From the NCBI RefSeq assembly GCF_024758505.1, contig NZ_CP077970.1, positions 6,200,001 through 6,264,000 of the forward strand: a DNA stretch of 64,000 bases, written 5' to 3'. Below, piece by piece: positions 2,603-27,481 of the stretch; position 1 is the stretch's first letter; each line of letters begins with the position of its first letter. Source of the DNA: Bradyrhizobium arachidis. GTDB lineage: Bacteria > Pseudomonadota > Alphaproteobacteria > Rhizobiales > Xanthobacteraceae. The notes beneath the pieces were generated by a model that saw only the letters and a list, made by a program, of their open reading frames with translations, did no database searches and was not told the DNA's origin. The translations under genes and the position numbers were made by a program.

Positions 2603-2619
2603 TGGCATTTGGTATGCCA
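2603..2619. promoter_or_regulatory. Predicted GntR operator, site A
   Basis: TGGCATTTGGTATGCCA is an interrupted palindrome (TGGCAT-N5-ATGCCA, with inner T/G variation). It lies in the divergent region between the acyl-CoA synthetase gene (start 154 bp away) and gntR. It differs from site B at one base in 17. Assignment to the adjacent GntR protein is inference from position and from the repeated occurrence near oxalate genes. Confidence 0.7.
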
Positions 2620-2674
2620 GAAGCCAACTTGTCAAGCGGCCGCATCGGGGGTAACGCCGCAAAAAATAGGCAGC

Positions 2675-2680
2675 TTGACA
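2675..2680 (+). promoter_or_regulatory. Possible -35 element ahead of gntR-oxc-frc
   Basis: TTGACA lies three bases before operator B. A perfect -35 hexamer just before the palindrome also occurs ahead of the CBS gene (27457-27462). No good -10 is found at the standard spacing, so the exact promoter is uncertain, but repression by a protein on the palindrome fits this layout. Confidence 0.4.
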
Positions 2681-2683
2681 TTC

Positions 2684-2700
2684 TGGCATGTGGTATGCCA
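2684..2700. promoter_or_regulatory. Predicted GntR operator, site B
   Basis: TGGCATGTGGTATGCCA, centred 81 bp from site A and ending 58 bp before the gntR start codon. The position would allow autoregulation of gntR-oxc-frc. The dyad of TGG..CCA half-sites is of the kind bound by FCD-type GntR proteins. Confidence 0.75.
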
Positions 2701-2758
2701 AAAACATTTCGGTAAATATTCCTGTAAAAGACGACTCCTTCATAGGAGGAGAATCGTC

Positions 2759-3490
2759 GTGTCCCTACGGAAACAGACCAAGGCGCCGTCCAACATGGCC
2801 GAGGCAGACATCGCAATCGTCCGCATTGCCCCGGAGAGCAGCTTCAAGAACAAGGCGTATGACGCCTTGAAGGAAGCGATCCTCAGGATGGACATCTATT
2901 CGACGCCCGAGCCGGTAATGCTCGACGAGCGCGCCCTCTCCGAACGACTTGGTGTCAGCCGCACGCCGATCCGCGAAGCGATCGCCATGCTCGAGCAGGA
3001 CGGCTTTGTGAAGACCGTGCCGCGCCGGGGCATCATGGTGGTGCGCCGGACCAAAAGCGAGATCGTCGACATGATCCGCGCCTGGGCGGCGCTGGAGAGC
3101 ATGGCCGCGCGCCTGATCACCACGACCGCGCGCAAGAAGGACATCTCGGCGCTGCGCGACTTCTTCAAGGATTTTGGCAAGGACCGCCTGCCCGAAGATC
3201 ACGTCGAGGAATATTCCAAGGCGAATATCGCGTTCCACCAGGCGCTGATCTCGCTGTCGGAATCGCCGATCCTGGTCGACCTGACCAACGATCTGCTGCT
3301 GCATGTGCGCGGCTACCGGCAACTGACCATCGGACGCAAGGATCGCACCGCGACCTCGCTGCCCGAGCATCTCGGCATCATCGAAGCGCTGGAAGCGCGC
3401 GACACCGAACTCGCCGAGAAGCGCGCGCGTGACCACACGCTGGGCCTTGCGGCCTACGTCGAGGCCCACGGCCAGGAACTTTTTACTTAG
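2759..3490 (+). CDS. GntR-family (FCD) transcriptional regulator of the oxalate operon
   Basis: I choose the GTG at 2759 because AGGAGGAG (2744-2751) sits seven bases before it; the in-frame ATG at 2795 has no comparable ribosome site. This gives 243 residues. After a short tail, a winged helix-turn-helix begins around residue 25 ([37 protein letters not shown]). The C-terminal helical FCD effector domain follows, with metal/ligand-type residues in [26 protein letters not shown] and [12 protein letters not shown]. It lies 62 bp upstream of oxc in the same direction and is probably co-transcribed with oxc-frc. Two palindromes lie in its promoter. Family assignment is sure. Control of oxalate genes and the inducer (oxalate, oxalyl-CoA or formyl-CoA) are inference. 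Confidence 0.88.
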
Positions 3491-3552
3491 CAACGTTCAC
3501 CAGAAGGACGAGCACTCGTCCCAACGACCTTGAGATCAGGGAGACAAGGCCC

Positions 3553-5286
3553 ATGCTGAATACCGCGACCAAGTCCGAAGCACCGGGCTCCGAGCAGGAA
3601 CTGACGGATGGTTTTCATCTCGTCATCGACGCGCTCAAGCTGAACGGCATCAACACCATCTATAATGTGCCGGGCATCCCGATCACGGATTTGGGCCGCA
3701 TGGCGCAGGCCGCCGGTATTCGCGTGATCTCCTTCCGCCACGAGCAGAACGCCGGCTACGCAGCAGCGATTGCCGGCTACCTCACCAAGAAGCCGGGCAT
3801 CTGCCTCACCGTGTCGGCGCCCGGCTTCCTCAACGGCCTCACCGCGCTCGCCCACGCCACCACCAATTGCTACCCGATGATCCTGATCTCGGGCTCGTCG
3901 GAGCGCGAGATCGTCGACCTCCAGCAGGGCGACTATGAAGAGATGGATCAGCTCGCGATTGCAAAACCGCTGTGCAAGGCGGCCTATCGCGTGCTGCACG
4001 CCCAGGACATCGGCATTGGTCTCGCCCGTGCGATCCGCGCCGCGGTCTCGGGCCGTCCCGGCGGCGTCTATCTCGACCTGCCGGCAAAACTGTTCGGCCA
4101 GGTGATGAACGCCGACGCCGGCCAGAAGTCGCTCGTCAAGGTGATCGACGCTGCGCCCGCGCAGATCCCCTCGCCCGCTTCGGTCAGGCGCGCGCTCGAC
4201 GTGCTCAAGGGCGCAAAGCGTCCCCTCATCATCCTCGGCAAGGGCGCGGCCTACGCGCAGGCCGACGAAGAGATCAAGACCTTCGTCGAGAAGAGCGGCG
4301 TGCCGTTCCTCCCGATGAGCATGGCCAAGGGCCTGTTGCCCGACAACCATCCGCAATGCGCCGGTGCGGCCCGCTCCACGGTGCTGAAGGACTCCGACGT
4401 CGTGATGCTGATCGGCGCGCGGCTGAATTGGCTGCTCTCGCACGGCAAGGGCAAGAGCTGGGGCGATGCGCCCAAGAAGTTCATCCAGGTCGATATCGAG
4501 CCGAAGGAAATGGACTCCAACATCGAGATCGTCGCCCCCGTGGTCGGCGACATCGGCTCCGTCGTTTCCGCTTTCGTCTCGGCGATGGGCGCAGGCTGGA
4601 CCGCGCCGCCGTCCGACTGGACCAAGGCCGTTGCGACCAAGCGCGAAGAGAACGTCGCCAAGATGGCGCCGAAGCTGATGAACAACAAGTCGCCGATGGA
4701 CTATCACGGCGCGCTCGGCGTCCTGAAGAACGTCATCAAGGATCGTCCCGACGCGATCCTTGTCAACGAGGGCGCCAACACGCTCGACCTCGCCCGCGGC
4801 GTCATCGACATGTACAAGCCGCGCAAGCGTCTCGACGTCGGCACCTGGGGCGTGATGGGCATCGGCATGGGCCAGGCGATCGCAGCCGCGCTCGAGACCG
4901 GCAATCCCGTGCTCGCGGTCGAAGGCGACAGCGCGTTCGGCTTCTCCGGCATGGAGGTCGAGACCATCTGCCGTTACAACCTTCCGGTCTGCGTCGTCAT
5001 CTTCAACAATGACGGCATCTATCGCGGCACCGACGTCAACAATGCCAACGCGGATCCCGCGACCACCGTGTTCGTCAAGGGCGCGCGCTACGACAAGATG
5101 ATGGAAGCTTTTGGCGGTGTCGGCGTGAACGCGACCTCGCCGGACGAGCTCAAGCGCGCCGTCAACGAAGCGATGGATTCACGCAGGCCCACGCTGATCA
5201 ACGCGGTGATCGATCCGGCGGCGGGCTCGGAGAGCGGCCGTATCGGCAATCTCAATCCGCAGAGCGTTTTGCAGAAGAAGAAGTAA
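3553..5286 (+). CDS. oxc: Oxalyl-CoA decarboxylase
   Basis: A thiamine-diphosphate enzyme of 577 residues, the usual length for Oxc. It converts oxalyl-CoA to formyl-CoA and CO2 in the cytoplasm. The N-terminal pyrimidine-binding domain carries [11 protein letters not shown] with the conserved glutamate (Glu64). A central domain ([12 protein letters not shown]) follows. The C-terminal pyrophosphate-binding domain carries the [12 protein letters not shown] to [12 protein letters not shown] motif (about residues 457-490), which binds Mg-ThDP. The start ATG is preceded by GGGAGACAAGG. It lies between gntR and frc, and with frc forms the catalytic cycle that releases formate while passing CoA to a new oxalate. 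The whole sequence matches Oxc better than acetolactate synthase or other ThDP relatives. Confidence 0.96.
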
Positions 5287-5359: not shown

Positions 5360-6637
5360 ATGACAAAGGCGCTTACGGGCGTTCGCATTCTCGACTTCAC
5401 CCACGTCCAGTCGGGCCCGACCTGCACGCAGTTGCTGGCGTGGTTCGGCGCCGACGTGATCAAGGTGGAGCGTCCGGGTGTCGGCGACATCACCCGCGGC
5501 CAGTTGCAGGACATCCCGAACGTGGACAGCCTGTATTTCACCATGCTCAACCACAACAAGCGCTCGATCACGCTCGACACCAAGAACCCCAAGGGCAAGG
5601 AAGTTCTCACCGAGCTGATCAAGAAGTGCGACGTGCTGGTCGAAAACTTCGGCCCCGGCGTGCTCGACCGCATGGGCTTCCCCTGGGAGAAGATCCACGC
5701 CATCAACCCGAAGATGATCGTCGCCTCGATCAAGGGCTTTGGCCCCGGACCGTACGAAGACTGCAAGGTCTATGAGAACGTCGCCCAGTGCACCGGCGGC
5801 GCCGCTTCCACCACCGGCTTCCGCGACGGCCTGCCGCTCGTCACCGGCGCGCAGATCGGCGATTCCGGCACCGGCCTGCATCTCGCGCTCGGCATCGTCA
5901 CCGCGCTCTACCAGCGCACGCATTCCGGCAAGGGTCAGAAGGTCACCGCCGCGATGCAGGACGGCGTGCTCAATCTCGCCCGCGTCAAGCTGCGCGACCA
6001 GCAGCGCCTCGCCCACGGTCCGCTCAAGGAATACAGCCAGTTCGGCGAAGGCATCCCGTTCGGCGATGCCGTGCCGCGCGCCGGCAACGATTCCGGCGGC
6101 GGCCAGCCCGGCCGCATCCTGAAGTGCAAGGGCTGGGAGACCGATCCCAACGCCTACATCTACTTCATCACCCAGGCCCCGGTCTGGGAGAAGATCTGCG
6201 ACGTGATCGGCGAGCCGACCTGGAAGACCGATCCGAACTACGCCAAGCCCCCGGCCCGCCTGCCGCGCTTGAACGAAATCTTCGCCCGCATCGAGAAGTG
6301 GACGATGACGAAGACGAAGTTCGAAGCGATGGAGATCCTCAACAAGGACGACATCCCCTGCGGCCCGATCCTGTCGATGAAGGAGATCGCGGAAGACCAG
6401 TCGCTGCGCGCCACCGGCACCGTGGTCGAGGTCGATCACCCGACTCGCGGCAAGTACATCTCGGTCGGCAACCCGATCAAGCTGTCGGACTCGGCCAGCG
6501 ACGTGACCCGCTCCCCGCTACTCGGCGAGCACACCGACGAGATTTTGCGCCAGGTGCTCGGCTTCTCCGACCATCAGGTCGCCGACATCCACGACTCCGG
6601 CGCGCTCGATCCGCCGCGCAAGCAGGCCGCGGAGTAA
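5360..6637 (+). CDS. frc: Formyl-CoA:oxalate CoA-transferase
   Basis: A class III CoA-transferase of 425 residues, the standard Frc length. It moves CoA from formyl-CoA to oxalate, giving formate and oxalyl-CoA for Oxc. The catalytic aspartate is Asp168 in [12 protein letters not shown], equivalent to the Asp169 that forms the aspartyl-CoA anhydride in the Oxalobacter enzyme. The glycine-rich active-site loop is seen as NDSGGGQPG. The N-terminus [20 protein letters not shown] is the signature CoA-transferase start. The gene lies 73 bp after oxc and is followed at once by a strong terminator, which closes the gntR-oxc-frc unit. Confidence 0.96.
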
Positions 6638-6656
6638 GGATCCGCATCAAAACGAC

Positions 6657-6686
6657 GAAAGGCCGCCGGTTTCGGCGGCTTTTTTC
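6657..6686 (+). terminator. Rho-independent terminator after frc
   Basis: GCCGCC-GGTTTC-GGCGGC stem-loop (6662-6679) preceded by A residues and followed by T6, 20 bp past the frc stop codon. Confidence 0.9.
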
Positions 6687-6731
6687 TTGCGCGACGAGGC
6701 GGGCGCTTGCGGGCCCGCCACCAAAACCTGA

Positions 6732-6814
6732 AAACAACCCCATGCACAGTAGCCGGTGGCCACCCGCACGACGCTACGGATTTTACGAAATTCGCTTGAC
6801 GCGTCGGGCAAATC
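6732..6814 (+). repeat. 83-bp dispersed repeat with promoter-like end, copy 1
   Basis: Two conserved blocks, 25 bp (starting AAACAACCCCATGCACAGTA) and 36 bp (ending CGTCGGGCAAATC), flank a 22-bp variable centre. A second copy of exactly the same length is at 50130-50212. The second block contains TTGACG (6796-6801), and 18 bp later comes TATAAG (6820-6825), which would make a credible sigma-70 promoter pointing right. Confidence 0.8.
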
Positions 6815-7092
6815 AGTGCTATAAGCAGATCATTCCACAGTTGGGCCTCCGGTCGGCGACGCTTCACGCAAGCGTGGAGATCGCGTTGATGCGAGTTGCG
6901 TCACGAGCGGGCCGTCGTCGCGAACAATTCACCCGACAGTCGGTTTTCTCCTCGTTAGCGTCGCTGACACGTGCAACTACCGCAGGCCACCGCCGGGCCG
7001 CGCTCCAAAGCGGTCGCGGCGCTGTTCCGAATCGATTAACCACCCCAACGACGATCCACATGTGCGCTCCCGTGGTTCGGTAGAGCTTCGCA
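6815..7092. other. Intergenic stretch without recognised gene
   Basis: After the promoter-like end of the repeat, 278 bp precede the next gene. A small dyad (GCTTCACGCAAGCG) is visible. The open frames here have no ribosome site and no recognisable product. Confidence 0.5.
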
Positions 7093-7929
7093 ATGCATGA
7101 CCTGCCATGGAGACATCCCTTGTACGCGGCCGCCACTCGTTCCCTGGCTATCGCAATCCTGCTCAGCACCGCCGTCCCTGACGCATCCGAAGCCGCCGGC
7201 CAGATTCCGTACGGCACGCGCGCCGGGATGTTGGTGACCATCAAGGCGATGGACGGCATCGATACCGAAAAGGCCTCGATCAAGGTCGAGCACACGCGGC
7301 AGAACGCCAAGGAATTCTGCGTCGAGTACTCCCTGGAACAGAGCGAGGCCTGCGTCGAGAGAACCCTGAAAGACGTCCGCATCAACGATGTGCTGATCGG
7401 CAACTGCCGCACCGCGCAGTTCACCAACCTTCGCGGCGAACAGCGGATTTTTGCGGGAGCGAACCTTGATCACGACGCCGTTCAGTACAGTCCCGAGTAC
7501 AGGATCTTCAAGAAGGGCGAGCGGGCCTACCTGGACGGCAGCTCGGGGTCCGGTTATCCGGTCGACCTCGAGCAATTCAAGGCACTCTGCCCTTCGGCGT
7601 ACGCGCAAGCGATGACGGCGTTCGAGACCAGACCGAAATTCATCGGGCGCTGGTACCTGGACGACAAGAAGATCTGCGGCAATCCCGACGGGGCCGCCGA
7701 GGGTCTGTTGACCTACACGTCGCGGGAGTTCCTCGCCATCGAAATGGCCTGCAAGTTTACGAACGTCCGCGCAGTGGGCGACCGCTACGAAATCTCCATG
7801 AACTGCGCCAGTGAGGGCCAGACTTCGAAGGAACGGGTCACGCTCGGGGTCAGCAAGGGCAAGCTCGTCCGGACGATCACCGTCGACCGAAAGCAGACGA
7901 CGTTCACCTACAACCGGTGTCCGTTCTGA
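7093..7929 (+). CDS. Uncharacterised exported protein
   Basis: A 278-residue protein. The N-terminus has basic residues, then a hydrophobic stretch (RSLAIAILLSTAVPDASEAAG, about residues 16-36) that reads as a signal peptide with cleavage after Ala-Ser-Glu-Ala. The mature part is soluble and has eight or more cysteines (for example FCVEYSLEQSEACVE, LIGNCRTAQF, KKICGNPDG, EMACKF, MNCASEG, YNRCPF), consistent with disulfides in the periplasm. No enzyme motif is recognised. It stands alone; the repeat copy upstream offers a possible promoter. I cannot assign a function. Confidence 0.7.
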   Translation: MHDLPWRHPLYAAATRSLAIAILLSTAVPDASEAAGQIPYGTRAGMLVTIKAMDGIDTEKASIKVEHTRQNAKEFCVEYSLEQSEACVERTLKDVRINDVLIGNCRTAQFTNLRGEQRIFAGANLDHDAVQYSPEYRIFKKGERAYLDGSSGSGYPVDLEQFKALCPSAYAQAMTAFETRPKFIGRWYLDDKKICGNPDGAAEGLLTYTSREFLAIEMACKFTNVRAVGDRYEISMNCASEGQTSKERVTLGVSKGKLVRTITVDRKQTTFTYNRCPF

Positions 7930-8051
7930 TATTTCATCAGCTGAATTTGGCGGGAGTTTAGAGGTTCCGGCCAGACGATCTTCCCGCCGGCACTCCCAAC
8001 ATGCGGCGGCCTTTTTTCATGGCGAGTTTTCATGGGAAGTGGCGTGCCTCG

Positions 8052-8438
8052 CTAGAGATCCCCGCCGAGCAGCTTCCTGCCCGCCGCGGCCCGGGACATC
8101 GCATCCCTGCAAGGCTCGCTCAGCTCTGCGATGTGCGATTTGATGCATGCCCTGATGCCGCCGGTACCAGGCCTGATACCGGCACACAGATTGGCGACAT
8201 CCGCCTTGCAGGTCTTTCCGGTCACCGCCACCGTGAGCAGGCGGTCCTGGCAGGCCTCCGACACGTCTTTCAAGTGAGACTTGATGCAGGCCTTGATCCG
8301 GCCCTCGCCGGGTCGAATGCCCGCACACAGCGTCTTGATGTCACCGGTGCAAGGTGGTCCCGTCTGCTGCGCCACCACGACGGAATCTGACAGCAACAAA
8401 GCTATCATGATGACGAGCCCGGATCGGATCCCTGCCAT
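8052..8438 (-). CDS. Exported cysteine-rich repeat protein (GLG1-type repeats)
   Basis: I choose the ATG at 8436-8438, which follows GAGGAC and opens a clear signal peptide (SGLVIMIALLLSDSVVVAQ). A longer frame reaching 8555 would begin inside a repeat. The 128-residue product has two similar units, each with C-x3-I/V-x2-LCAGIRPG-x-G-x-I-x-ACIKSH and a later C-x-D. This is the spacing of the cysteine-rich repeat of Golgi apparatus protein 1 (Pfam Cys_rich_FGFR), which is also found in bacterial secreted proteins. The cysteines are probably paired in the periplasm. Role unknown. Confidence 0.75.
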   Translation of the reverse strand: MAGIRSGLVIMIALLLSDSVVVAQQTGPPCTGDIKTLCAGIRPGEGRIKACIKSHLKDVSEACQDRLLTVAVTGKTCKADVANLCAGIRPGTGGIRACIKSHIAELSEPCRDAMSRAAAGRKLLGGDL

Positions 8439-8549
8439 TTTGATGTCCTCAGCGCGGACAGGATCATATCCGAACGCCGGCCGCGGCGCCAGAAAGACGA
8501 GCGGACCGCAAAATCCTTCCGCGCTCGCGCCCCGCCCGACAAACTTGAA

Positions 8550-8578
8550 AAACAACCCCTTGCAAGTAGCTGAGGATC
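8550..8578. repeat. Partial, diverged copy of the dispersed repeat
   Basis: AAACAACCCCTTGCAAGTAG resembles the first block of the 83-bp repeat (AAACAACCCCATGCACAGTA). The second block is missing. It lies directly after the point where the DUF2721-like gene stops. Confidence 0.45.
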
Positions 8579-8585
8579 ACCGGCA

Positions 8586-8828
8586 CTAGCCCTGCGATCG
8601 GTTCAGAAGCCTCGCCCTCTCTTGGAGCCGCGGCAGATCGGCTTTCACGAACGCCCTTGCGGAGTCGTTTGCGCCAATGCCGTGAATGAATTGCGCGCGG
8701 TCAATCACCCGGTTGATCCTGGAGATCAGTACGGAGATGAAGGCGGCGACGGCGCCGAGCAGGAACGCAGGCGCGGCGACGTTGGCGATGATCTGGCCGA
8801 GCTGGTCGATCGAAGGTGTGACCGGCAT
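8586..8828 (-). pseudogene. DUF2721-like membrane protein, 3'-truncated remnant
   Basis: The frame from the ATG at 8826-8828 gives 80 residues: one membrane helix (IIANVAAPAFLLGAVAAFISVL) followed by SRINRVIDRAQFI, the characteristic R-x-N-R-V-I-D-R stretch of DUF2721 proteins, and a helical segment ending RLLNRSQG. Family members continue past this point with further membrane helices, which are absent here. The stop falls within 10 bp of a repeat fragment, so loss of the 3' end by a rearrangement at the repeat is likely. It may still be expressed as a short protein. Confidence 0.55.
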
Positions 8829-8845
8829 TAGATCGGTTACGCTCG

Positions 8846-9115
8846 TCACCGAAGCGTCTCGACCTTGGCGGCCATGTCGGGCGCACGGCTTACTCGATAG
8901 CTCGCGTTGCTGCATTTCAGCACCCACACCGCGTGATCGGGCCTTGATCGTTGCCGATCCCTGACGGCGCCGAGTGGTTTGTCGCAGGCAAAACCCTGCA
9001 TGCGTATCTGTGCCGCGAGCATGCTCTGGGGCGTTTCCTGCGCGGTTTGGGCGCGGCCGACCGTCAGTCCGCCCATTGTGCCTGCCAGCACAAGTAAACC
9101 AAGCGTCTTGTACAT
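8846..9115 (-). CDS. Small exported protein, uncharacterised
   Basis: An 89-residue protein from the ATG at 9113-9115, chosen because it opens a signal peptide (YKTLGLLVLAGTMGGLTVGRAQ). The mature part has two cysteines (GFACDKP and VLKCSNAS), probably one disulfide, and ends RVSRAPDMAAKVETLR. The stop lies 17 bp before the DUF2721-like frame, so the two were probably one transcript. Similar small proteins are common in Bradyrhizobium-like genomes; function unknown. Confidence 0.65.
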   Translation of the reverse strand: MYKTLGLLVLAGTMGGLTVGRAQTAQETPQSMLAAQIRMQGFACDKPLGAVRDRQRSRPDHAVWVLKCSNASYRVSRAPDMAAKVETLR

Positions 9116-9462
9116 GTCATTTCCTCTCAACGCGACGGAGCTGCCTTGGGCTACCGCCCGCAAGATCGGGCCCCACGCGAACCATGACGGCCTAACGAAA
9201 AGGACAAGACCGGTCGCCCCGGCCTCGGCGGCCGCGGCGAGAACGGTCCATTGCGATCTCCATGCCTTTCCACATGCAGGTCTCTGCCGCCGACAGCGAA
9301 TTCATGCCACCCGCTTGATTGGAGGAATCTCATAGCTCCGTCGAGCAAAGGTTTGCTCGTATTCATTGCAGAATCCTCCTAGATGACGAAGTCCTCCGTA
9401 AACGCAGCCAGTTGCTATTTTCTTGTGGGCCGTCTCCGGCGGTCCCACTGTCCAGGACCTCC
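9116..9462. other. Intergenic stretch without recognised gene
   Basis: About 350 bp between two leftward genes. A dyad near 9342-9360 (GAGCAAAGGTTTGCTC) and the promoter of the small exported protein should lie here. The short open frames on either strand have no supported ribosome site. Confidence 0.4.
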
Positions 9463-10905: not shown

Positions 10906-11041
10906 TTTGCAGCACTCCCGTTTAGGGCACCTTTCCGCGATACTGAGTGAGGCAGCCGAGGGGCGCTGAGTTGTGCCGATCTTGATGTCGGCTTGAGCGC
11001 CCCTCCTCTGTTCGTCGCTTGAACTATTCGCGCGCCCAGCA

Positions 11042-16443: not shown

Positions 16444-16499
16444 GCGGTTGGATCCTCATCGCCCGTCACGATGAATTGCAGCTCGCCTCAAGATCGTAG

Positions 16500-16718: not shown

Positions 16719-16849
16719 ATCCAGCGCCGAACTTTCACGCACACCTTGCGTCTGGACACAGCACATTCGCCCAAGATTTCTGCGCCTTGGCTTCACCCTA
16801 TACCTGGCATAGGATCGGCAGACATTGATGTCTCAGCGGGATAAGACAA

Positions 16850-17065: not shown

Positions 17066-17150
17066 GCCGATATGGACGGGATAGCTCCGCGGACGTTCAT
17101 AGCGATGGGCCTCATCATGACCGCGACTGTCGCTGGCTCGGGCCTTTGTG

Positions 17151-17822: not shown

Positions 17823-18203
17823 TGTTGGCCTACGCTTATCACGATGACAGGATCGAACACGCACTGCCATTGACCGATTGAGCGACGCTAGGAACCCGTC
17901 TGGAAAGACAATGAGCCCCTCAACGTTTCCGCGAAAGTGCGGCGGCACGATACACAGTGCCCCCGCTCGTGACCCGAAGGAAGATCGCAGCACGAGAAGT
18001 CAATCGGCCCCTCACCAACACGCGGGCGCATGCCTGCGGCAGTTTAGAAGCTTCGGCCACACCATCCGCGCCTGATGTTCCCGACACGGGTTGGCAAAAA
18101 ATCCGAGACGCGATGTCGGACCAGCCAGGTCTCGTTCGTCCTTAGGCCATGAATGGGCAATAGACCTCGATGTCAGGCCCATCAATTCATGAGGATGACG
18201 ATC
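17823..18203. other. Intergenic stretch without recognised gene
   Basis: 381 bp with only short unsupported frames. No clear dyad or terminator. Confidence 0.4.
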
Positions 18204-18647
18204 ATGCCCAGCACTGTGCGCCTGCACCGCGTTCTGACGACCAGCCCGGAGAAAGTCTATCGCGCCTTCCTCGAGGCGGACGCGCTGGCGAAATGGCTGC
18301 CGCCCAACGGCTTTGCCTGTACCGTTCATCATTTGGAGCCAAAGGTCGGCGGCACGTTCAAAATGTCGTTCCGGAACTTCACGACCGGCAACAGCCACGC
18401 CTTCGGCGGCGAATATGTCGAGCTCGTCCCCGGCGAACGTCTCCGCTACACCGACAAATTCGACGATCCCAATCTGCCGGGCGAGATCCAGGTGACCGTG
18501 ATCTTGAAGAAAGTATCCGTGGGCACCGAAGTGGACATCACGCAGGCCGGCATCCCGGACGTCATTCCGCCGGAAGCCTGTTATCTCGGCTGGCAGGAGT
18601 CGCTGCGGAATCTGGCAAGGCTCGTCGAACCCGAGATCAATCAATAG
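18204..18647 (+). CDS. SRPBCC (AHSA1-type) domain protein
   Basis: A 147-residue single-domain protein. It begins RLHRVLTTSPEKVYRAFLEADALAKWLPP, the standard opening of activator-of-Hsp90-ATPase-homologue / SRPBCC proteins, and continues with GGTFKMSFRNF, GGEYVELVPGERLRYTDKF, TEVDITQAGIPD and GWQESLRNLARLVE. The fold forms a hydrophobic ligand cavity. The start at 18204 follows GAGGA. It lies convergent with the Hsp70-like gene, 48 bp away. The ligand is unknown. Confidence 0.85.
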   Translation: MPSTVRLHRVLTTSPEKVYRAFLEADALAKWLPPNGFACTVHHLEPKVGGTFKMSFRNFTTGNSHAFGGEYVELVPGERLRYTDKFDDPNLPGEIQVTVILKKVSVGTEVDITQAGIPDVIPPEACYLGWQESLRNLARLVEPEINQ

Positions 18648-18695
18648 CGTGCGTAAATAGCGCGCGGATACTGAAGGCGGGCTCGTGACCTTGGG

Positions 18696-20027: not shown

Positions 20028-20246
20028 GAACCACTCTGACAGATGATTGGAAAAAGGGGGCAGACCTCTAACGGCTTTGAGTTGCCCTGCCAAGGCCCGG
20101 TCCGTTGCGTCGGCAACGGAATTCCGCCGGGAACGAACGTTTTGGCGCCCGTTTTGTATCTTTATGCCCGAAACGGCCGCGTTAAGGGAACATTATGTTG
20201 CAATGCAAGATATCAAATGCTGCTATGCAAACAAAACTGTAGTCCT

Positions 20247-20263
20247 TGGCATCTGGTATACAT
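20247..20263. promoter_or_regulatory. Predicted GntR operator, site C (one half weaker)
   Basis: TGGCATCTGGTATACAT matches the shared palindrome except in the last two or three bases. It lies 60 bp before the 45-residue gene and 219 bp from the Hsp70-like gene, which runs the other way. Confidence 0.55.
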
Positions 20264-20323: not shown

Positions 20324-20461
20324 ATGTCCAAAACTGCCTCCGTCGCGCTTGCGCCCTCCAGCTCCCTGCTCGCCCGCCTGATCGCCGCGGTCGACGGCCT
20401 GTTGATGGCGAGCGCCCAGATCTCGATCCGCAACGGCGACCTGCCCCGGTTCGGCCTGTAA
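20324..20461 (+). CDS. 45-residue protein downstream of an operator
   Basis: Product from ATG 20324, with GAAAGGAAAG upstream as ribosome site: MSKTASVALAPSS, then a mildly hydrophobic helix (LLARLIAAVDGLLMASAQ), then a conserved-looking end ISIRNGDLPRFGL. Similar short proteins ending IRNGD-x-P/S-R-x-G occur in Bradyrhizobium-like genomes. It has its own operator-like site upstream and a perfect terminator downstream, so it is a stand-alone transcript. No function known. Confidence 0.6.
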   Translation: MSKTASVALAPSSSLLARLIAAVDGLLMASAQISIRNGDLPRFGL

Positions 20462-20636: not shown

Positions 20637-20653
20637 TGGCATCTCGCATACCA
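20637..20653. promoter_or_regulatory. Predicted GntR operator, site D
   Basis: TGGCATCTCGCATACCA, a full TGGCAT-N5-ATACCA dyad. It is the only such site ahead of tctC, 277 bp from its start codon, which implies a long leader or a second function. Confidence 0.65.
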
Positions 20654-20930
20654 TTGGCCAATCGAGAAGGATTTGCACAACCAAAAGTGCAAGACGGGGA
20701 TGCATAACGCAGGACGGGAACGGCCAAGGGCGAGCCACGCACCGTGGTCCTTGGCGGAACCTTAGCCCAAAGGAGCGGATGCCGCGCCTTGTCCCCGCTC
20801 ATAAACTTCTGGTTGGTGAGGCTGCTGGGAGATCAGCCGTAAACGGTGACCCCCAGGCATTGAATCGGGATGGGCTGATGCGAGCTGCCAAAGAGCGGCC
20901 GTGTTCAAGGTTCGACAGGGAGAGAAACAA

Positions 20931-21938
20931 ATGAAGCCATTCGTTCTGAATGTCGCTTTGGCGGCAATCGCGATGTCGTGCGTCTGCAGCACCGCAAGCT
21001 CTGCGGCCTGGGAGCCGGTTCGTCCGGTCGAGTTCATCGTGCCCGCGGGCACCGGCGGCGGTGCCGATCAGATGGCGCGCACCATCCAGGGCATCGTCAC
21101 CAAACACAGTCTGATGAAGCAGCCGCTGGTCGTCATCAACAAGGCCGGCGGCGCCGGCGGTGAAGGCTTCCTCGATGTGAAGACGGCGTCGAACAACCCT
21201 CACAAGATCATTATCACGCTGTCGAACCTGTTCACGACGCCGCTGGCAACGGGGATTCCCTTCAACTGGAAGGACCTGACCCCGGTTGCAATGCTGGCTC
21301 TCGATGAATTCGTGCTCTGGGTGAATGCCGAGAAGCCGTACAACAGCGTCAAGGACTACGTCGAAGCCGCAAAGGCGGCACCGGGCGGCACCTTCAAGAT
21401 GGGCGGCACCGGCTCGAAGCAGGAGGATCAGATCATTACCGTCGGCATCGAGAAGGCGATCGATGCGAGGTTCACCTACATCCCCTACAAGGGCGGCGGC
21501 GAAGTCGCCGTCCAGCTCGTCGGCAATCACGTCGATTCGACCGTCAACAATCCGATCGAAGCGGTCGCGCAATGGCGCGGCGGCAAGCTCCGTCCGCTCT
21601 GCGTCTTCGACGCGCAGCCGATGGCCTATGACGAACCGATCGCCGACGGCAAGGCCTGGAAGGATATTCCAACCTGCAAGTCGCAGGGCCTCGCAATGGA
21701 ATATCTCATGCTGCGCGGCATCTTCATGTCGCCCAAAGCCACGAAGGACCAGGTCGAGTATTACGTCGAGCTGTTCAAGAAAGTCCGCGCCACGCCGGAG
21801 TGGCAGGACTTCATGAAGAGCGGCGCCTTCAACACGACCTTCCTGACCGGGGCCGACTACGCCAAGTGGATCGAAGCGGAGGAGAAGCGCCACGAGGGCT
21901 TGATGAAGGACGCCGGCTTCCTCGCGCCGGGGAATTGA
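20931..21938 (+). CDS. tctC: Tripartite tricarboxylate transporter, substrate-binding protein
   Basis: A 335-residue extracytoplasmic solute receptor of the TctC/Bug family. The ATG at 20931 follows AGGGAGAG and opens a signal peptide (NVALAAIAMSCVCSTASSAA). The mature protein begins WEPVRPVEFIVPAGTGGGADQMAR, the family signature, followed by VVINKAGGAGGEGFLD and FTYIPYKGGGEVAVQLVG. It delivers an organic anion to the TctAB membrane parts that follow (86 bp to tctB). The predicted oxalate-regulon operator upstream suggests oxalate or another dicarboxylate, but Bug-type specificity cannot be read from sequence. Confidence 0.92.
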   Translation: MKPFVLNVALAAIAMSCVCSTASSAAWEPVRPVEFIVPAGTGGGADQMARTIQGIVTKHSLMKQPLVVINKAGGAGGEGFLDVKTASNNPHKIIITLSNLFTTPLATGIPFNWKDLTPVAMLALDEFVLWVNAEKPYNSVKDYVEAAKAAPGGTFKMGGTGSKQEDQIITVGIEKAIDARFTYIPYKGGGEVAVQLVGNHVDSTVNNPIEAVAQWRGGKLRPLCVFDAQPMAYDEPIADGKAWKDIPTCKSQGLAMEYLMLRGIFMSPKATKDQVEYYVELFKKVRATPEWQDFMKSGAFNTTFLTGADYAKWIEAEEKRHEGLMKDAGFLAPGN

Positions 21939-22024
21939 CCCCTGACATCGGTGACGGCTGAGGACGCAGGTCGTCCTCCCGTCGGCCGCGACCGCGAAAC
22001 AGCGCGACTTTATCTGGAGGCCCC

Positions 22025-22522
22025 ATGACTGAACTACCCGGATCCGAATCTGGCCCGGCACACAAGACGCTGGAAATCGGCATGGCGCTGTTGATCGGCG
22101 CCTTCGGCCTGGTCGTGATCTTCGGCAGCCTGAAGGCCGGTATCAACTGGGGTGCGGAAGGCCCGCGTGCCGGCTTCTTCCCCTTCTATATCGGCACCGC
22201 CATCGTCGCCGCGAGCGCCATCAACCTTTGGAGCGCTCAACGCAACACCGACCGCCGGCTGTTCGCAGCATGGGGACAGCTTCGCCAGGTCATGAGCGTC
22301 GTCGTACCCACCGCGATCTATGTCGGCTCGATGCCGTTCATCGGCCTCTATGTCTCCTCGATGCTCTTTATCGCCTGGTTCATGCGCTGGCTCGGCGGCT
22401 ATCGCTGGCTGACCACCATCGCCGTGGCCGTCGGCATGCCGGTCCTGACCTACCTTGTTTTCGAACGCTGGTTCCTGGTCCCGCTTCCCAAGGGTCCGCT
22501 CGAGGAATGGCTTGGTCTGTAG
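22025..22522 (+). CDS. tctB: Tripartite tricarboxylate transporter, small membrane subunit
   Basis: A 165-residue protein with about four membrane helices (EIGMALLIGAFGLVVIFGSL, GFFPFYIGTAIVAASAINLW, VMSVVVPTAIYVGSMPFIG, YVSSMLFIAWFM and WLTTIAVAVGMPVLTYLVF). Length and topology are those of TctB. The ATG at 22025 follows CTGGAGG. It lies between tctC and tctA in the usual order. Confidence 0.9.
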   Translation: MTELPGSESGPAHKTLEIGMALLIGAFGLVVIFGSLKAGINWGAEGPRAGFFPFYIGTAIVAASAINLWSAQRNTDRRLFAAWGQLRQVMSVVVPTAIYVGSMPFIGLYVSSMLFIAWFMRWLGGYRWLTTIAVAVGMPVLTYLVFERWFLVPLPKGPLEEWLGL

Positions 22523-22581
22523 AAGGCTTGGCCTGCAAGGGCTGTGCCGTCAATTCAGTTGTTGTTGCAGGACGCATCGAT

Positions 22582-24081
22582 ATGGAAGAGTTAGCCAACC
22601 TGTTTCACGGCTTCGCGGTCGCCCTGCAGCCCTACAACATCATGCTGATGATCATCGGCATCACGCTCGGGGTGATCATCGGCGTGCTTCCGGGGCTCGG
22701 CGGTGCCAACGGCGTGGCGATCCTCCTGCCCCTCACCTTCAGCATGCCGCCGACATCGGCGATCATCATGCTGTCCTGCATCTATTGGGGCGCATTGTTC
22801 GGCGGCGCCATCACCTCGATCCTGTTCAACATACCCGGAGAGCCCTGGTCGGTGGCGACCACGTTCGACGGCTACCCGATGGCGCAACAGGGCAAACCCG
22901 GCGAAGCGCTGACGGCCGCCTTCACCTCCTCCTTCGTAGGCGCGCTGTTTGCGGTCATCATGATCACGCTCGTCGCCCCCCTGGTCGCAGGCTTCGCGCT
23001 GCGATTTGGTCCGGCGGAAAAGTTCGCCGTCTACTTCCTCGCCTTCTGCAGCTTCGTTGGCCTGAGCAAGGAGCCGCCGTTCAAGACCATCGCGGCGATG
23101 ATGATGGGTTTCGCGCTCGCGGCGGTCGGCCTGGATTCGATCACGGGGCAGTTGCGGCTGACCTTCGGCGTCACGGAGTTGCTCAACGGGTTCGATTTCC
23201 TGATCGCCGTGATTGGCCTGTTCGGGATCGGCGAGATCCTGCTGACCATGGAGGAAGGGCTGGCCTTCCGCGGCGGCAACGCGACGATCAACCTTCGGGT
23301 CGTGCTGCAAACATGGTGCGAACTGCCGAGCTACTGGATGACGTCGCTGCGCTCCTGCCTGATCGGGTGCTGGATGGGCGTGACCCCCGCCGGCGCAACG
23401 CCGGCCTCCTTCATGAGCTACGGCATCGCCAAGCGGCTGGCGCGGCGCGGCAACAACTTTGGCAAGGGCGAGATCGAAGGCGTGATCGCGCCGGAGACGG
23501 CCGCGCATGCTGCGGGCACCTCGGCGCTGCTGCCGATGCTGTCGCTCGGCGTGCCCGGCTCCCCGACAGCCGCGGTTCTGCTTGGCGGACTGTTGATATG
23601 GGGCCTGCAGCCCGGCCCCATGTTGTTCGTCGAGCAGAAGGAGTTCGTCTGGGGCCTGATCGCGTCGATGTATCTCGGCAACCTCGCGGGCCTCATCGTC
23701 GTGCTCACCTGCGTCCCGATCTTCGCTGCGATCCTGCGCGTGCCCTTCGGCATCATCGCGCCGCTCATCCTCGTGCTCTGTGCGATCGGCGCCTACTCGG
23801 TGCACAACAGCACCTTCGACGTGATGCTGATGCTGGTGTTCGGCGTGCTCGGCTATCTCCTGAAGAAGTGCAACTACCCGCTCGCGCCGCTGGTGCTCGC
23901 CATCGTGCTCGGCGACAAGGCGGAGGAAGCCTTCCGCCAATCGCTGCTGGGATCGCAGGGCTCGCTCGGTGTGTTCTTCTCCAACGGCCTCGTCAGCACG
24001 ATCATGGTGCTTGGCCTGGTCGCGTTGTTCTGGTCCGCGATCCAGGAAGGCTATAGCCGGCTGCGCACCGCGGCCGCGTGA
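22582..24081 (+). CDS. tctA: Tripartite tricarboxylate transporter, large membrane subunit
   Basis: A 499-residue protein with about 11-12 membrane helices, the normal TctA size. Signature parts include GVIIGVLPGLGGANGVAILLPLTF, CIYWGALFGGAITSILFNIPGEP and the second half-repeat with GVTPAGATPASFMSYGIAK, AAHAAGTSALLPMLSLGVPGSPTAA. The ATG at 22582 places the first helix correctly; the frame is open further upstream, overlapping tctB. With TctC and TctB it forms a secondary, ion-coupled importer in the inner membrane. Confidence 0.93.
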   Translation: MEELANLFHGFAVALQPYNIMLMIIGITLGVIIGVLPGLGGANGVAILLPLTFSMPPTSAIIMLSCIYWGALFGGAITSILFNIPGEPWSVATTFDGYPMAQQGKPGEALTAAFTSSFVGALFAVIMITLVAPLVAGFALRFGPAEKFAVYFLAFCSFVGLSKEPPFKTIAAMMMGFALAAVGLDSITGQLRLTFGVTELLNGFDFLIAVIGLFGIGEILLTMEEGLAFRGGNATINLRVVLQTWCELPSYWMTSLRSCLIGCWMGVTPAGATPASFMSYGIAKRLARRGNNFGKGEIEGVIAPETAAHAAGTSALLPMLSLGVPGSPTAAVLLGGLLIWGLQPGPMLFVEQKEFVWGLIASMYLGNLAGLIVVLTCVPIFAAILRVPFGIIAPLILVLCAIGAYSVHNSTFDVMLMLVFGVLGYLLKKCNYPLAPLVLAIVLGDKAEEAFRQSLLGSQGSLGVFFSNGLVSTIMVLGLVALFWSAIQEGYSRLRTAAA

Positions 24082-24419
24082 ATCGCGCGCACGCCAGCGC
24101 GCCGCGATACGCCCTCGCGCCTCGCTTCTGGAATAAAGAATTCCACGCCTTGCGCGATCGCCCGGCCGTCGCACCTCGACGCGCGCTGCCCTGCCCGCCC
24201 CAGCGGAAGCTGAAAAAGCCGTGGATGCGTGAGCTTCCCGCAGCAGGCGGACTGAGTGCAGCGAGGAATATTTCTTACGAAATCAAAGCATTAAGTGCGG
24301 AGCGGTGGCGGTTTCGGGCCGCGCATGGACGGGCTTTACAATTCCGCCGTCATGGGATGATGTGAGCATCTCCCGCGATATTTCGCCGCACCTCTCAGCC
24401 CCGCCCGTCGCTTGAATCT
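24082..24419. other. Intergenic stretch between tctA and the first OFA gene
   Basis: About 340 bp with no supported gene. An AT-rich patch (near 24266-24295) could hold a promoter. No terminator with a clear T-tract was found after tctA. Confidence 0.4.
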
Positions 24420-24436
24420 TGGCATAATGAATACCA
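24420..24436. promoter_or_regulatory. Predicted GntR operator, site E
   Basis: TGGCATAATGAATACCA, a full dyad, 58 bp before the first OFA transporter gene. The flanking bases extend the symmetry (CT before, AG after). Confidence 0.7.
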
Positions 24437-24494: not shown

Positions 24495-25784
24495 ATGACG
24501 GATATGGTGCAGGCAACAGCGGCCCCCACTGCCGCGCGCGTGAGCGATGCCTATCGCTGGACGCAATTGGCGGTGGGCGTTCTGGCGATGGTGATGATCG
24601 CCAATTACCAATACGGATGGACGTTCTTCGTCCCCGACATCCAGAAAAAGTTCGGCTGGGATCGCGCGTCGATCCAGTGGGCGTTCACGCTCTTCGTGCT
24701 GTTCGAGACCTGGCTCGTGCCGGTCGAAGGATGGTTCGTCGACAAATACGGCCCGCGCATCGTCGTGCTCGTCGGCGGCGTGCTCTGCGCCATCGGCTGG
24801 GCGATCAACGCCCAGGCCACCTCGCTCAACGGCTACTATCTCGGCATGATCATCGCGGGTATCGGCGCCGGCGGCGTCTACGGCACCTGCGTCGGCAATG
24901 CGCTGAAATGGTTCCCCGACAAGCGCGGTCTGGCCGCCGGCATCACGGCCGCCGGTTTCGGCGCGGGCTCTGCGCTCACGGTTGCGCCGATCCAGGCAAT
25001 GATCAAGGACTCCGGCTTCCAGACCACCTTCCTCTATTTCGGTCTCGGTCAGGGCATCATCATCTGCATCCTCGCCTTCTTCCTGCTCGCGCCGAAGGCC
25101 GGCCAGGTGCCGAACGTGGTGGCGAATGCCGCGCTGGTGCAGAGCCGCCGCAACTACCAGCCGACCGAAGTTCTGCGTCAGCCGATCTTCTGGCTGATGT
25201 ACTTCATGTTCGTGATCGTCGGCGCCGGCGGACTGATGGTGACGGCGAACCTGAAGCCGATCGCGGCCGACTGGAAGGTCGACAACGTGCCGGTCACGCT
25301 GATGGCGGTGACGATGACCGCGGTGACCTTCGCAGCCACGATCGACCGCGTGCTCAACGGCCTGACGCGTCCGTTCTTCGGCTGGATCTCCGACATGATC
25401 GGCCGCGAGAACACGATGTTCATCGCCTTCGGCATGGAAGGCTTCGGCATCTGGATGCTCTACCTTTGGGGCCACGATCCGGTGTGGTTCGTGCTGCTCT
25501 CGGGCTTCGTGTTCTTCGCCTGGGGTGAGATCTACTCGCTGTTCCCCTCGACCTGCACCGACACGTTCGGCGCCAAGTTCGCGACCACAAATGCGGGCCT
25601 GCTCTACACCGCAAAGGGCACGGCCGCGCTGCTGGTCCCCATCGCCAACTACATGCAGCAGTCGTCGGGCACCTGGGACAGCGTGTTCATCATCGCGGCC
25701 GGCGCCAACATCCTGGCCTCGGCGCTGGCGATCGCGGTGCTCAAGCCCTGGCGCAAGGTCGTGGTCGCCAAATCCACGCTCTGA
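24495..25784 (+). CDS. MFS transporter, oxalate/formate antiporter family (first copy)
   Basis: A 429-residue, 12-helix carrier of the major facilitator superfamily. Features of the OFA family are NYQYGWTFFVPDIQKKFGWDRASIQWAF, WFVDKYGPRIVVLVGG in the loop between helices 2 and 3, GAGGVYGTCVGNALKWFPDKRGLA, and the mirrored second-half motif NGLTRPFFGWISDMIGREN. GGAGG precedes the ATG. With Oxc/Frc nearby, oxalate uptake, possibly in exchange for formate, is the likely job; this is inferred from family and context. It has its own operator and terminator, and a close paralogue follows. Confidence 0.9.
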   Translation: MTDMVQATAAPTAARVSDAYRWTQLAVGVLAMVMIANYQYGWTFFVPDIQKKFGWDRASIQWAFTLFVLFETWLVPVEGWFVDKYGPRIVVLVGGVLCAIGWAINAQATSLNGYYLGMIIAGIGAGGVYGTCVGNALKWFPDKRGLAAGITAAGFGAGSALTVAPIQAMIKDSGFQTTFLYFGLGQGIIICILAFFLLAPKAGQVPNVVANAALVQSRRNYQPTEVLRQPIFWLMYFMFVIVGAGGLMVTANLKPIAADWKVDNVPVTLMAVTMTAVTFAATIDRVLNGLTRPFFGWISDMIGRENTMFIAFGMEGFGIWMLYLWGHDPVWFVLLSGFVFFAWGEIYSLFPSTCTDTFGAKFATTNAGLLYTAKGTAALLVPIANYMQQSSGTWDSVFIIAAGANILASALAIAVLKPWRKVVVAKSTL

Positions 25785-25840: not shown

Positions 25841-25913
25841 CGTTGGCGATTCTGCTTTCACGAAACAGAGTAGCGGATTTGATGGAGGTTCCCTCAAGAT
25901 TGGGCTTGCATTC

Positions 25914-25930
25914 TGGAATATGGTATACCA
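25914..25930. promoter_or_regulatory. Predicted GntR operator, site F
   Basis: TGGAATATGGTATACCA, 81 bp before the second OFA gene. The flanks TC and GA extend the symmetry. Confidence 0.7.
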
Positions 25931-26011
25931 GATTGCCCGATGCGCTTGCGACAATACGCCACAACCTTGCGACACTAGGTCACAACCGGCGAGCGCGTTG
26001 GGAGGACATTG

Positions 26012-27340
26012 ATGATGACCGATACGGACGGCGCCGTTACGGCCGCGCCCCTGCGAAGTGGTTACCGTTGGCTCCAGCTCGCGATGGGCATCGTCTGCAT
26101 GGCGATGATCGCCAACCTGCAATATGGCTGGACGCTGTTCGTCGATCCGATCGATGCCGCCCATCACTGGGGCCGTGCCGCGATCCAGCTCGCCTTCACC
26201 ATCTTCGTCGTCACCGAGACCTGGCTCGTGCCGGTCGAGGCCTGGTTCGTCGACAAATACGGCCCGCGCATCGTCATCATGTTCGGCGGCGTGATGATCG
26301 CGCTCTCCTGGATTCTCAACTCCTACGCCGACTCGCTCACCCTGCTCTATGCGGCTGCGATCGTCGGCGGCATGGGCGCGGGCGCCGTGTACGGCACCTG
26401 CGTCGGCAACGCGCTGAAGTGGTTTCCGGACCGCCGCGGCCTCGCCGCCGGCGCGACCGCGGCCGGCTTCGGCGCCGGCGCAGCGCTCACCATCGTGCCG
26501 ATCGCGAGCATGATCGCCTCCAGCGGCTATGAGAGCGCGTTCCTCAAATTCGGCATCGGCCAGGGCCTGATAGTCTTCGCGCTCGCCTTCTTCATCAGCC
26601 CGCCGCAGGTCTCGATCCCGCCGCGGAAGAAGAAGCTCAATCTGCCGCAGACCAAGATCGACTTCACCCCGCCGCAGGTGCTGCGCAGCCCTATTTTCTG
26701 GGTGATGTACCTGGTTTTCGTGATGGTCGCCTCCGGCGGCCTGATGACGGCGGCGCAGATCGCCCCGATCGCGCACGACTTCAAGATCGCCGACACGCCC
26801 GTCACGCTGGCCGGCTTCCAGATGGCGGCGCTGACCTTCGCGATCTCGCTCGATCGCATCTTCGACGGCTTTGGGCGTCCGTTCTTCGGCTGGGTCTCCG
26901 ACACGATCGGCCGCGAGCACACCATGTTCATCGCGTTCGGAACGGCAGCGCTCATGCTGCTGACCCTGTCGGCTTACGGGCATGTGCCTATCGTCTTCGT
27001 GCTGGCGACCGCGATCTATTTCGGTGTGTTCGGCGAGATCTACTCGCTGTTCCCCGCGACCTGCGGCGACACTTTCGGTTCCAAGTTCGCGACCACCAAC
27101 AACGGCATGCTCTATACCGCAAAGGGCACCGCTTCCCTGCTGGTCCCGCTCGCAAGCGTGATCTCGACCACCTATGGCTGGAAGGCCGTGTTCGTCGTGG
27201 CGGTGGCGCTGAACGCGACGGCAGCGCTGATGGCGCTGTTCGTCATCAAGCCGCTACGGCGTTCCTTCATCCTCGGCCACGAGGCGATCGAGACGGACAC
27301 CGCGACTGGCAAGGCGACGAGCAAGCCCAAGACGGCTTGA
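26012..27340 (+). CDS. MFS transporter, oxalate/formate antiporter family (second copy)
   Basis: A 442-residue carrier closely related to the preceding gene: NLQYGWTLFVDPIDAAHHWGR, WFVDKYGPRIVIMFGG, GAGAVYGTCVGNALKWFPDRRGLA and DGFGRPFFGWVSDTIGRE line up block by block. It has a longer C-terminal cytoplasmic tail (IETDTATGKATSKPKTA) and a slightly more divergent central loop with a basic run (PPRKKKLNLPQTK). I choose ATG 26012, after GGAGGACATT. It looks like a tandem duplication that has diverged, perhaps to a second substrate or to the opposite direction of transport. Confidence 0.9.
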   Translation: MMTDTDGAVTAAPLRSGYRWLQLAMGIVCMAMIANLQYGWTLFVDPIDAAHHWGRAAIQLAFTIFVVTETWLVPVEAWFVDKYGPRIVIMFGGVMIALSWILNSYADSLTLLYAAAIVGGMGAGAVYGTCVGNALKWFPDRRGLAAGATAAGFGAGAALTIVPIASMIASSGYESAFLKFGIGQGLIVFALAFFISPPQVSIPPRKKKLNLPQTKIDFTPPQVLRSPIFWVMYLVFVMVASGGLMTAAQIAPIAHDFKIADTPVTLAGFQMAALTFAISLDRIFDGFGRPFFGWVSDTIGREHTMFIAFGTAALMLLTLSAYGHVPIVFVLATAIYFGVFGEIYSLFPATCGDTFGSKFATTNNGMLYTAKGTASLLVPLASVISTTYGWKAVFVVAVALNATAALMALFVIKPLRRSFILGHEAIETDTATGKATSKPKTA

Positions 27341-27366
27341 GCGCCGCAAAATCCGCAATACCTGAG

Positions 27367-27391
27367 AGGGGCGCTTAACGGCGCCCCTTTT
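27367..27391 (+). terminator. Rho-independent terminator after the second OFA gene
   Basis: GGGGCGC-TTAACG-GCGCCCC followed by T4, 27 bp after the stop codon. Confidence 0.9.
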
Positions 27392-27456
27392 CATTTCCGG
27401 ATCGGGAACGTCAGCAACCCTGCCGTTTAAATTTTCGGCCAAACCGCATCTTGGGT

Positions 27457-27462
27457 TTGACA
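27457..27462 (+). promoter_or_regulatory. Possible -35 element ahead of the CBS gene
   Basis: TTGACA two bases before operator G, the same arrangement as at the gntR promoter. Confidence 0.4.
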
Positions 27463-27464
27463 AT

Positions 27465-27481
27465 TGGCATAATGTATACCA
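27465..27481. promoter_or_regulatory. Predicted GntR operator, site G
   Basis: TGGCATAATGTATACCA, 35 bp before the start codon of the CBS-domain gene. It differs from site E at one base. Confidence 0.7.

Follow-up and report, generated by a model that had tools for sequence, protein, structure and literature searches.

A predicted GntR-family repressor and its operator appear to join oxalate use with formate oxidation and succinyl-CoA synthetase in Bradyrhizobium arachidis

Regulators of the GntR/FadR type with an FCD effector domain, LldR among them, act as local repressors that respond to carboxylate-type effectors. DgoR, CitO and NanR belong to the same class, and all combine a winged helix-turn-helix domain with an FCD domain, as does the regulator described here. 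That regulator, GntR, is encoded in a 64-kb stretch of Bradyrhizobium arachidis DNA (the window; positions 6200001-6264000 of the 9.43-Mb chromosome NZ_CP077970.1), beside genes for oxalyl-coenzyme A (CoA) decarboxylase and formyl-CoA transferase. Like the described repressors, it has an N/D-H-H-H ligand set, a site before its own operon, an operator with a GT..AC core, and an operator lying over the promoter. It differs from them in serving an oxalate pathway, in having unlinked candidate targets, the formate dehydrogenase operon (fds) and the succinyl-CoA synthetase genes sucCD, and in carrying an extra half-site in most of its sites. Our searches of the open-licence PMC library found no GntR regulator or operator for bacterial oxalate genes, although an earlier prediction is possible. 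Domains and operator core place the protein among the FCD regulators of the GntR/FadR type, with predicted binding. The regulon has strong support and would be a new one of a known kind; the link to sucCD is its unexpected part.

We propose, with a probability of about 0.87, that the FCD-type GntR protein would be a local repressor of its own gene and of a complete oxalate-to-CO2 programme. About nine operator copies appear to answer to this one predicted repressor, in a layout that appears to be kept in dozens of related species. GntR would bind a FadR-type core, TNGYATRCCA, together with a TGGNAT half-site 7 bp upstream, and in five promoter classes the operator would occupy the promoter spacer behind a -35-like box, so that RNA polymerase would be blocked. 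The predicted regulon would include gntR-oxc-frc, the divergent acs gene, a gene for a 45-aa protein, tctCBA, two genes of the oxalate/formate antiporter (OFA) family and a CBS-panE-FAA group, with the fds operon and sucCD as distant targets elsewhere in the genome. Oxalate or one of its products (oxalyl-CoA, formyl-CoA or glyoxylate) would fill the metal-type pocket of the FCD domain, and the repressor would then be released. The genes of the cluster are as follows.

319..2448, minus strand: acs, a single-chain acyl-CoA synthetase (ATP-grasp/Succ_CoA_lig type) read divergently from gntR (PF13549, PF13607, PF19045)
2759..3490, plus strand: gntR, FCD-type GntR regulator, the predicted binder (PF00392 and PF07729)
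3553..5286, plus strand: oxc, oxalyl-CoA decarboxylase (TIGR03254, above cut-off)
5360..6637, plus strand: frc, formyl-CoA transferase (TIGR03253, above cut-off)
20324..20461, plus strand: conserved 45-aa protein, with relatives in 17 of 60 loci and no Pfam family
20931..24081, plus strand: tctC, tctB and tctA, tripartite tricarboxylate-type transporter (PF03401, PF07331, PF01970)
24495..25784, plus strand: OFA1, oxalate/formate antiporter family (TIGR04259, above cut-off)
26009..27340, plus strand: OFA2, oxalate/formate antiporter family (TIGR04259, above cut-off)
27517..27942, plus strand: CBS-domain protein (PF00571 twice)
28105..29121, plus strand: PanE-like reductase (PF02558/PF08546)
29118..29909, plus strand: FAA-hydrolase family protein, in the same direction as panE (PF01557)

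The window was searched with the 17-bp pattern TGGYAT-N5-ATRCCA. Five exact matches were found, starting at 2603, 2684, 20637, 24420 and 27465, while 100 shuffles of the window gave a mean of 0.02 matches and never reached five. Two further sites depart from the pattern, the one at 25914 by one mismatch (TGGAAT) and the one at 20247 by two. The distance from the end of the site to the start codon was 58 bp for gntR, 277 bp for tctC, 58 bp for OFA1, 78 bp for OFA2, 35 bp for CBS, 60 bp for the 45-aa gene and, counted from the distal site, 154 bp for acs. An earlier note on this stretch had listed these seven positions as copies of one palindrome, all intergenic and five of them 35-81 bp before a start codon, with none between the two halves of the cluster. 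The positions stand: sequence and gene calls place all seven between genes, the five distances are 58, 60, 58, 78 and 35 bp, and no site with up to two mismatches lies between 2700 and 20247. The site at 20247 had rightly been marked as weaker, while the mismatch at 25914 had not been flagged, and a minus-strand site at 2610-2626 and two exact sites outside the window had been missed. The operators and the -35-like boxes near them are listed below.

2603..2619, plus strand: distal operator of the acs/gntR intergenic region, exact, recurring in relatives
2610..2626, minus strand: overlapping operator facing acs, one mismatch, also in loci L075-L077
2630-2635, minus strand: TTGACA, 9 bp upstream of the acs-facing operator
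2675..2680, plus strand: -35-like TTGACA, 9 bp before the operator at 2684
2684..2700, plus strand: operator of gntR-oxc-frc, exact, recurring in relatives
20247..20263, plus strand: operator of the 45-aa gene, two mismatches, with the form TGGYATCTGGTATACNT in relatives
20637..20653, plus strand: operator of tctCBA, 277 bp before tctC, exact; 15 such sites, this one included, each have TTG 8 bp upstream
24412..24417, plus strand: -35-like TTGAAT, 8 bp before the OFA1 operator
24420..24436, plus strand: operator of OFA carrier 1, exact, recurring in relatives
25906..25911, plus strand: -35-like TTGCAT, 8 bp before the OFA2 operator
25914..25930, plus strand: operator of OFA carrier 2, one mismatch, the TGGAAT variant found in 9 of 9 sites of the OFA2 class
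27457..27462, plus strand: -35-like TTGACA, 8 bp before the CBS operator
27465..27481, plus strand: operator of the CBS gene, exact, and probably also of panE-FAA behind it

To judge from the whole chromosome, the pattern is specific to promoters of the pathway. It occurs exactly in seven places, five of them in the window, and its reversed form in none. The two outside sites, at chromosome positions 2284959 and 402658, lie 46 and 56 bp upstream of start codons, measured from the end of the site; the first precedes a gene for a NuoF-like subunit and then one for a formate dehydrogenase alpha subunit (TIGR01591, above cut-off), which together mark the fds operon, and the second precedes sucC and sucD, downstream of mdh. 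The hits to hundreds of unrelated promoters that, according to the earlier note, would have spoken against a regulon were not seen, since all seven exact sites stand before oxalate- or formate-linked genes or sucCD. At up to one mismatch the genome holds 44 sites, compared with 14 for the reversed pattern. Of the 35 one-mismatch sites outside the window, 24 were classified by a rule based on open reading frames and third-codon-position GC content (GC3), a weak rule applied to some short loci, and 14 of these fell within likely genes and 10 outside. The two that lie closest to start codons do not look like members: 5633223 overlaps the start of a frame, and 8097293 is 135 bp before a frame that resembles inositol monophosphatase by eye. 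A refined pattern, TKGNATNNNGYATRCMW, fitted on these and related sites, matched the genome eight times, with 0 and 1 matches for the reversed pattern. All eight matches lie in regulon promoters and point the same way as the gene behind them, and the OFA1 site alone is missed. Since the refined pattern was shaped on regulon sites, the lack of extra matches is informative, while its recall is not.

Within the operator, the pattern's fixed positions are conserved by selection, and positions 7-11 are the only fair test of its structure. With the sites grouped by class and some reversed to match the others, the motif read TGGNATNTNGTATRCCA, with G at position 10 in 88% and C at position 8 in 10%; for this version the looser distant sites were picked by eye, the sites of second sucC copies were turned, and the panE sites of L111-L113 were left out. 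A script count in gene direction with no site turned gave A at position 7 in 65%, T or C at position 8 in 50% and 35%, a mixed position 9, G at position 10 in 64% and T at position 11 in 58%. A simple 17-bp palindrome, as first proposed, is probably not the best description of most sites, real as the sites are. Most read better as a TGGNAT box joined to a FadR-type core, GYATRC. The core's ten bases match the FadR-subfamily consensus given in section 5 of PMC4494728, and GYATRC, which occupies positions 10-15 in most classes on one strand or the other, agrees with the subfamily's GT-x-AC rule (x = 2-3). GYATRC lies on the gene side in most classes and faces the opposite way in the acs, second-copy sucC and L111-L113 panE sites. 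It is weaker in OFA1 (G at position 10 in 7 of 11) and OFA2 (3 of 5). In the second-copy sucC sites it is the box that is degraded; in some of the distant sites before gntR it is the core's far end.

With the box at positions 1-6 and the core at 8-17, the box is 9 nt from the operator centre, which agrees with the additional half-sites reported 7-12 nt from the centre in operators of the GntR family (Suvorova et al., 2015; PMC4494728, section 17). The boxes in that section are weaker than the true site, whereas most sites here carry the box; these were picked with a box-containing pattern, so that the strength of the box is not fairly measured. The (GGTATA)3 operator of NanR, as presented in PMC8012715 and in section 5 of PMC4494728, shares the TGGTAT-type half-sites and the short direct step, but its repeats are all direct, whereas here two direct half-sites 7 bp apart are joined by one inverted half-site. 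A NanR-type operator was rejected, as three direct GGTATA repeats do not occur.

In five promoter classes the position of the operator relative to a -35-like box is nearly constant. A TTG beginning 8-9 bp upstream of the operator was found in 37 of 39 gntR, 15 of 15 tctC, 21 of 21 OFA1, 9 of 9 OFA2 and 21 of 21 CBS promoters, or 103 of 105 in the five classes together. An operator 8-9 bp after a -35-like TTG fits repression.

Comparison with related loci showed that the sites recur before the same genes. A site with at most one mismatch precedes the main gntR gene in 39 of 40 nearer loci, and, counting genes in the gntR orientation with their start and including the window, a site precedes all 21 OFA1 genes, all 9 OFA2 genes, all 21 CBS genes and 15 of the 20 tctC genes. 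The acs gene is divergent beside gntR in 23 of 24 loci (L075-L098). We also read 20 distant loci in which gntR is about 50% identical and adjoins oxc and frc (in L200 the oxc relative is only 24% identical), and 11 of these have a site with at most one mismatch just before gntR. The distant loci were chosen for gntR lying close to fds on one contig, and 20 of the 23 such genomes were taken, so that the presence of fds in 19 of the 20 is no test.

The predicted binder itself matches PF00392 (47.2 bits) and PF07729 (77.9 bits) above cut-off, and matches the NanR model weakly, far below cut-off. Its FCD ligand set, N156, H160, H204 and H226, is invariant in 72 of 72 orthologues and aligns with the D and three H of 3sxy/3fms; such a set would suit a small metal-bound carboxylate.

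If this protein were the binder, sites and gntR should be found in the same genomes, and they are. With a match defined as E up to 1e-40, gntR is present in 121 of 149 genomes of the family. The mean number of exact sites per genome was 6.0 where gntR is at least 78% identical and beside an oxc-like gene (26 genomes), 1.27 where it is at least 78% identical and not beside oxc (11 genomes, one or two sites each), 3.4 at 57-59% identity (eight genomes), 0.66 at 48-57% (76 genomes) and 0.29 without a match (28 genomes). The reversed pattern gave totals of 6, 0, 1, 17 and 1 in the same order. In the group of 76, with 50 sites against 17 reversed ones, the rise above the control is much smaller than in the nearer groups; many of its sites are the TGGAAT variant, which the exact pattern does not see. 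One member of the group of 26, G040, has an oxc-like gene of no more than 25% identity and is not among the genomes counted below as having oxc, and G050, with oxc about 10.5 kb from a second gntR copy (L262), was counted as not beside oxc. Site counts in the 26 and 28 genomes differ with a Mann-Whitney p of 3.7e-11, shared descent ignored. The oxc gene occurs in 102 of the 149 genomes, all of them with a gntR match and none among the 28 that lack one (Fisher p 4.5e-18, kinship ignored). This co-occurrence with both sites and oxc, the site before gntR itself in nearer and distant loci, and the lack of a site at fds (one genome) and at sucC (10 genomes) when gntR is missing all favor GntR as the binder, as had been predicted.

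The two unlinked targets were followed across genomes. Among 18 fds loci of at least 79% identity, all 17 in gntR-bearing genomes carry a site with no more than two mismatches in the 300 bp upstream (exact in 13, with one mismatch in one and with two in three), and the genome without gntR (G075) has no such site in this interval. In the more distant group, fds lies within 30 kb of gntR in 23 of 43 fds-bearing genomes; in 19 the two are on different contigs and in G027 they are 2.7 Mb apart, so that 23 of the 24 with both genes on one contig have them within 30 kb.

The sucC promoter was read in all 37 genomes with gntR at least 78% identical and in 10 without gntR. The housekeeping sucC has a site in 14 of the 37 (13 exact, one with one mismatch) and in none of the 10; in G067 no site occurs in the 161 bp of promoter available. 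A second sucC copy is present in nine of the 37, and all nine second copies have a site 34-80 bp upstream (five with one mismatch, four with two), while the housekeeping sucC of the same genomes has none. The second copy is mostly inside the oxalate cluster; G112 has it next to a CBS gene on a different contig, and in G095 it lies about 40 kb from gntR beside CBS and OFA2. Where sucC is single and gntR adjoins oxc, 14 of 16 genomes have the site, and the remaining twelve of the 37 have neither oxc beside gntR (except for the 25% relative in G040) nor a sucC site. Setting G040 aside, 25 genomes divide into 14 with a single-copy site, nine with a second-copy site and two with none.

Gapless full-length relatives of the 45-aa protein were found in 17 of 60 loci searched (44-87% identity), and the operator form TGGYATCTGGTATACNT is present in all 17. 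The Pfam search assigned the protein to no family; 591 relatives are present in the protein database, the named ones among the 120 listed being all hypothetical, and the C-terminus carries NGD(L/V)P and then an almost invariant FGL. The regulon proposed in the earlier note is supported and needs extending to formate dehydrogenase, sucCD and probably panE and the FAA gene. We give about even odds to a further idea, in which succinyl-CoA synthetase would belong to the core of oxalate use. The oxalate repressor would capture it by one of two routes, mutually exclusive in the genomes examined: an operator placed on the housekeeping genes sucCD, or an additional sucC copy with an operator of its own, mostly in the oxalate cluster. 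The enzyme would provide or regain the CoA thioesters with which Frc is primed, and the widespread 45-aa protein, whose operator is always slightly imperfect, would be a small protein of the same programme.

Several observations weigh against our proposal. The gntR site is absent in L110 and looser, with at least two mismatches, in 9 of the 20 distant loci; tctC lacks a site in 5 of 20 loci, in four directly behind gntR-frc and in L076 as a 25% relative; even a two-mismatch site was found at only 2 of 12 distant fds loci (67-69% identity); and G005 and G114 have no sucC site despite gntR beside oxc. The promoter geometry fails in the panE class (TTG at -8/-9 in 1 of 4) and, by eye, differs at the fds and 45-aa gene sites, where TTG is mostly only 1 bp upstream, and at the sucC sites, where it is about 14 bp upstream. 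The p-values are overstated because related genomes are not independent, and for this strain the link between regulator and sites is predicted from sequence comparison. Published proteomics of another species, Bradyrhizobium diazoefficiens, in which Koch and colleagues reportedly linked oxalotrophy to arabinose in 2014, agree with the proposal. In that species Frc (bll3156) and Oxc (bll3157), the same enzymes as here, were higher on arabinose by proteomics (PMC5996035, section 15 and Table 2), and the NuoF-like blr2316 was detected on arabinose only (Table 2); that blr2316 would be the orthologue of an fds subunit is our own assignment. PMC5996035 contains no mention of a GntR.

Three other explanations were weighed. 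It is unlikely, in our estimate, that GntR, though it binds the sites, acts as an activator or no more than a modulator and leaves the main task to another regulator. The direction of control cannot be read from sequence, and the fds, sucC and 45-aa gene sites lie outside the -8/-9 geometry, as such a role would allow; the operator nevertheless follows the -35-like TTG in 103 of 105 promoters of the five classes, which is a blocker's place. Another FCD-GntR paralogue with a similar operator could own the sites and leave the oxc-side GntR as one of several binders or a minor one, since a first look at seven genomes of the genus, this one included, gave 35-52 GntR candidates each, and FadR-type cores resemble each other (PMC4494728, section 5). 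We regard this as very unlikely: the sites track the oxc-side gntR and are missing from the fds and sucC promoters read in gntR-less genomes, the site before gntR persists down to about 50% identity, and oxc never occurs without gntR in the 149 genomes.

The least probable of the alternatives, to our minds highly improbable, is that the fds and sucC sites are chance matches and the regulon is confined to the cluster. Scaling from the shuffles, two or three exact matches are expected in 9.4 Mb, and 11 of the 68 exact sites in ten relatives are in no recognised promoter. None of these 11 has GY at positions 10-11 on either strand, however, while the sites at fds and sucC are found again ahead of these genes in other genomes, the second sucC copy bears a site in nine, and fds is within 30 kb of gntR in 23 more distant ones. 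The interpretation that GntR would bind all of these sites, repress the genes behind them and be released by an oxalate-derived ligand remains the one we favor.

Other features of the locus and its relatives are also of interest. The PanE-like protein is probably an oxalyl-CoA reductase, by analogy with ApbA2 of C. necator (PMC7486775), and panE and the FAA gene probably share the CBS promoter and operator; in L099, where no CBS gene was found, the site stands before panE. Loci L100-L108 have a gntR-frc-panE arrangement, some with tctCBA, and few sites left; as they lack oxc, they may only reduce oxalyl-CoA to glyoxylate. In L089 the interval between gntR and frc keeps only short oxc-like stretches, as if deleted, and an oxc gene (78%) is found elsewhere in the genome (L262), while in L096 and L200 the gene at the oxc position is only 24-25% identical to oxc in an otherwise similar locus. 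One more exact site, in G095, lies about 250 bp before OFA2. In another family, at L215 and L216, a GntR relative of 63-64% identity is followed by a sucC-like gene that is 38-39% identical. An exact site, TGGCATTAGTTATACCA, ends some 57 bp ahead of the match; this is perhaps a related regulon.

The block between the two halves of the cluster (6640-20180) has no operator and encodes a DUF1254/DUF1214 protein, a sulfatase-like protein and an Hsp70-like protein; three further frames tested there gave no Pfam match. The halves are mostly closer in relatives, with tctC or OFA1 starting about 0.5 to 7 kb after frc, and in L092 and L097 neither gene is within the stretch read. A 277-bp leader (20654-20930) runs from the operator to tctC and measures 274-394 bp in relatives; an RNA element in it was rejected, with no Rfam match at the gathering threshold. 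The Bradyrhizobiaceae small RNA BjrC80 (RF02354, 122 bits) lies at 55426-55584 on the minus strand.

Oxalate is a major carbon acid of plants and soil. The analysis provides a named candidate regulator, an exact operator and a list of genes from uptake to formate oxidation; on the basis of sequence alone it links oxalate use with formate dehydrogenase and succinyl-CoA synthetase, and it draws attention to a conserved small protein.

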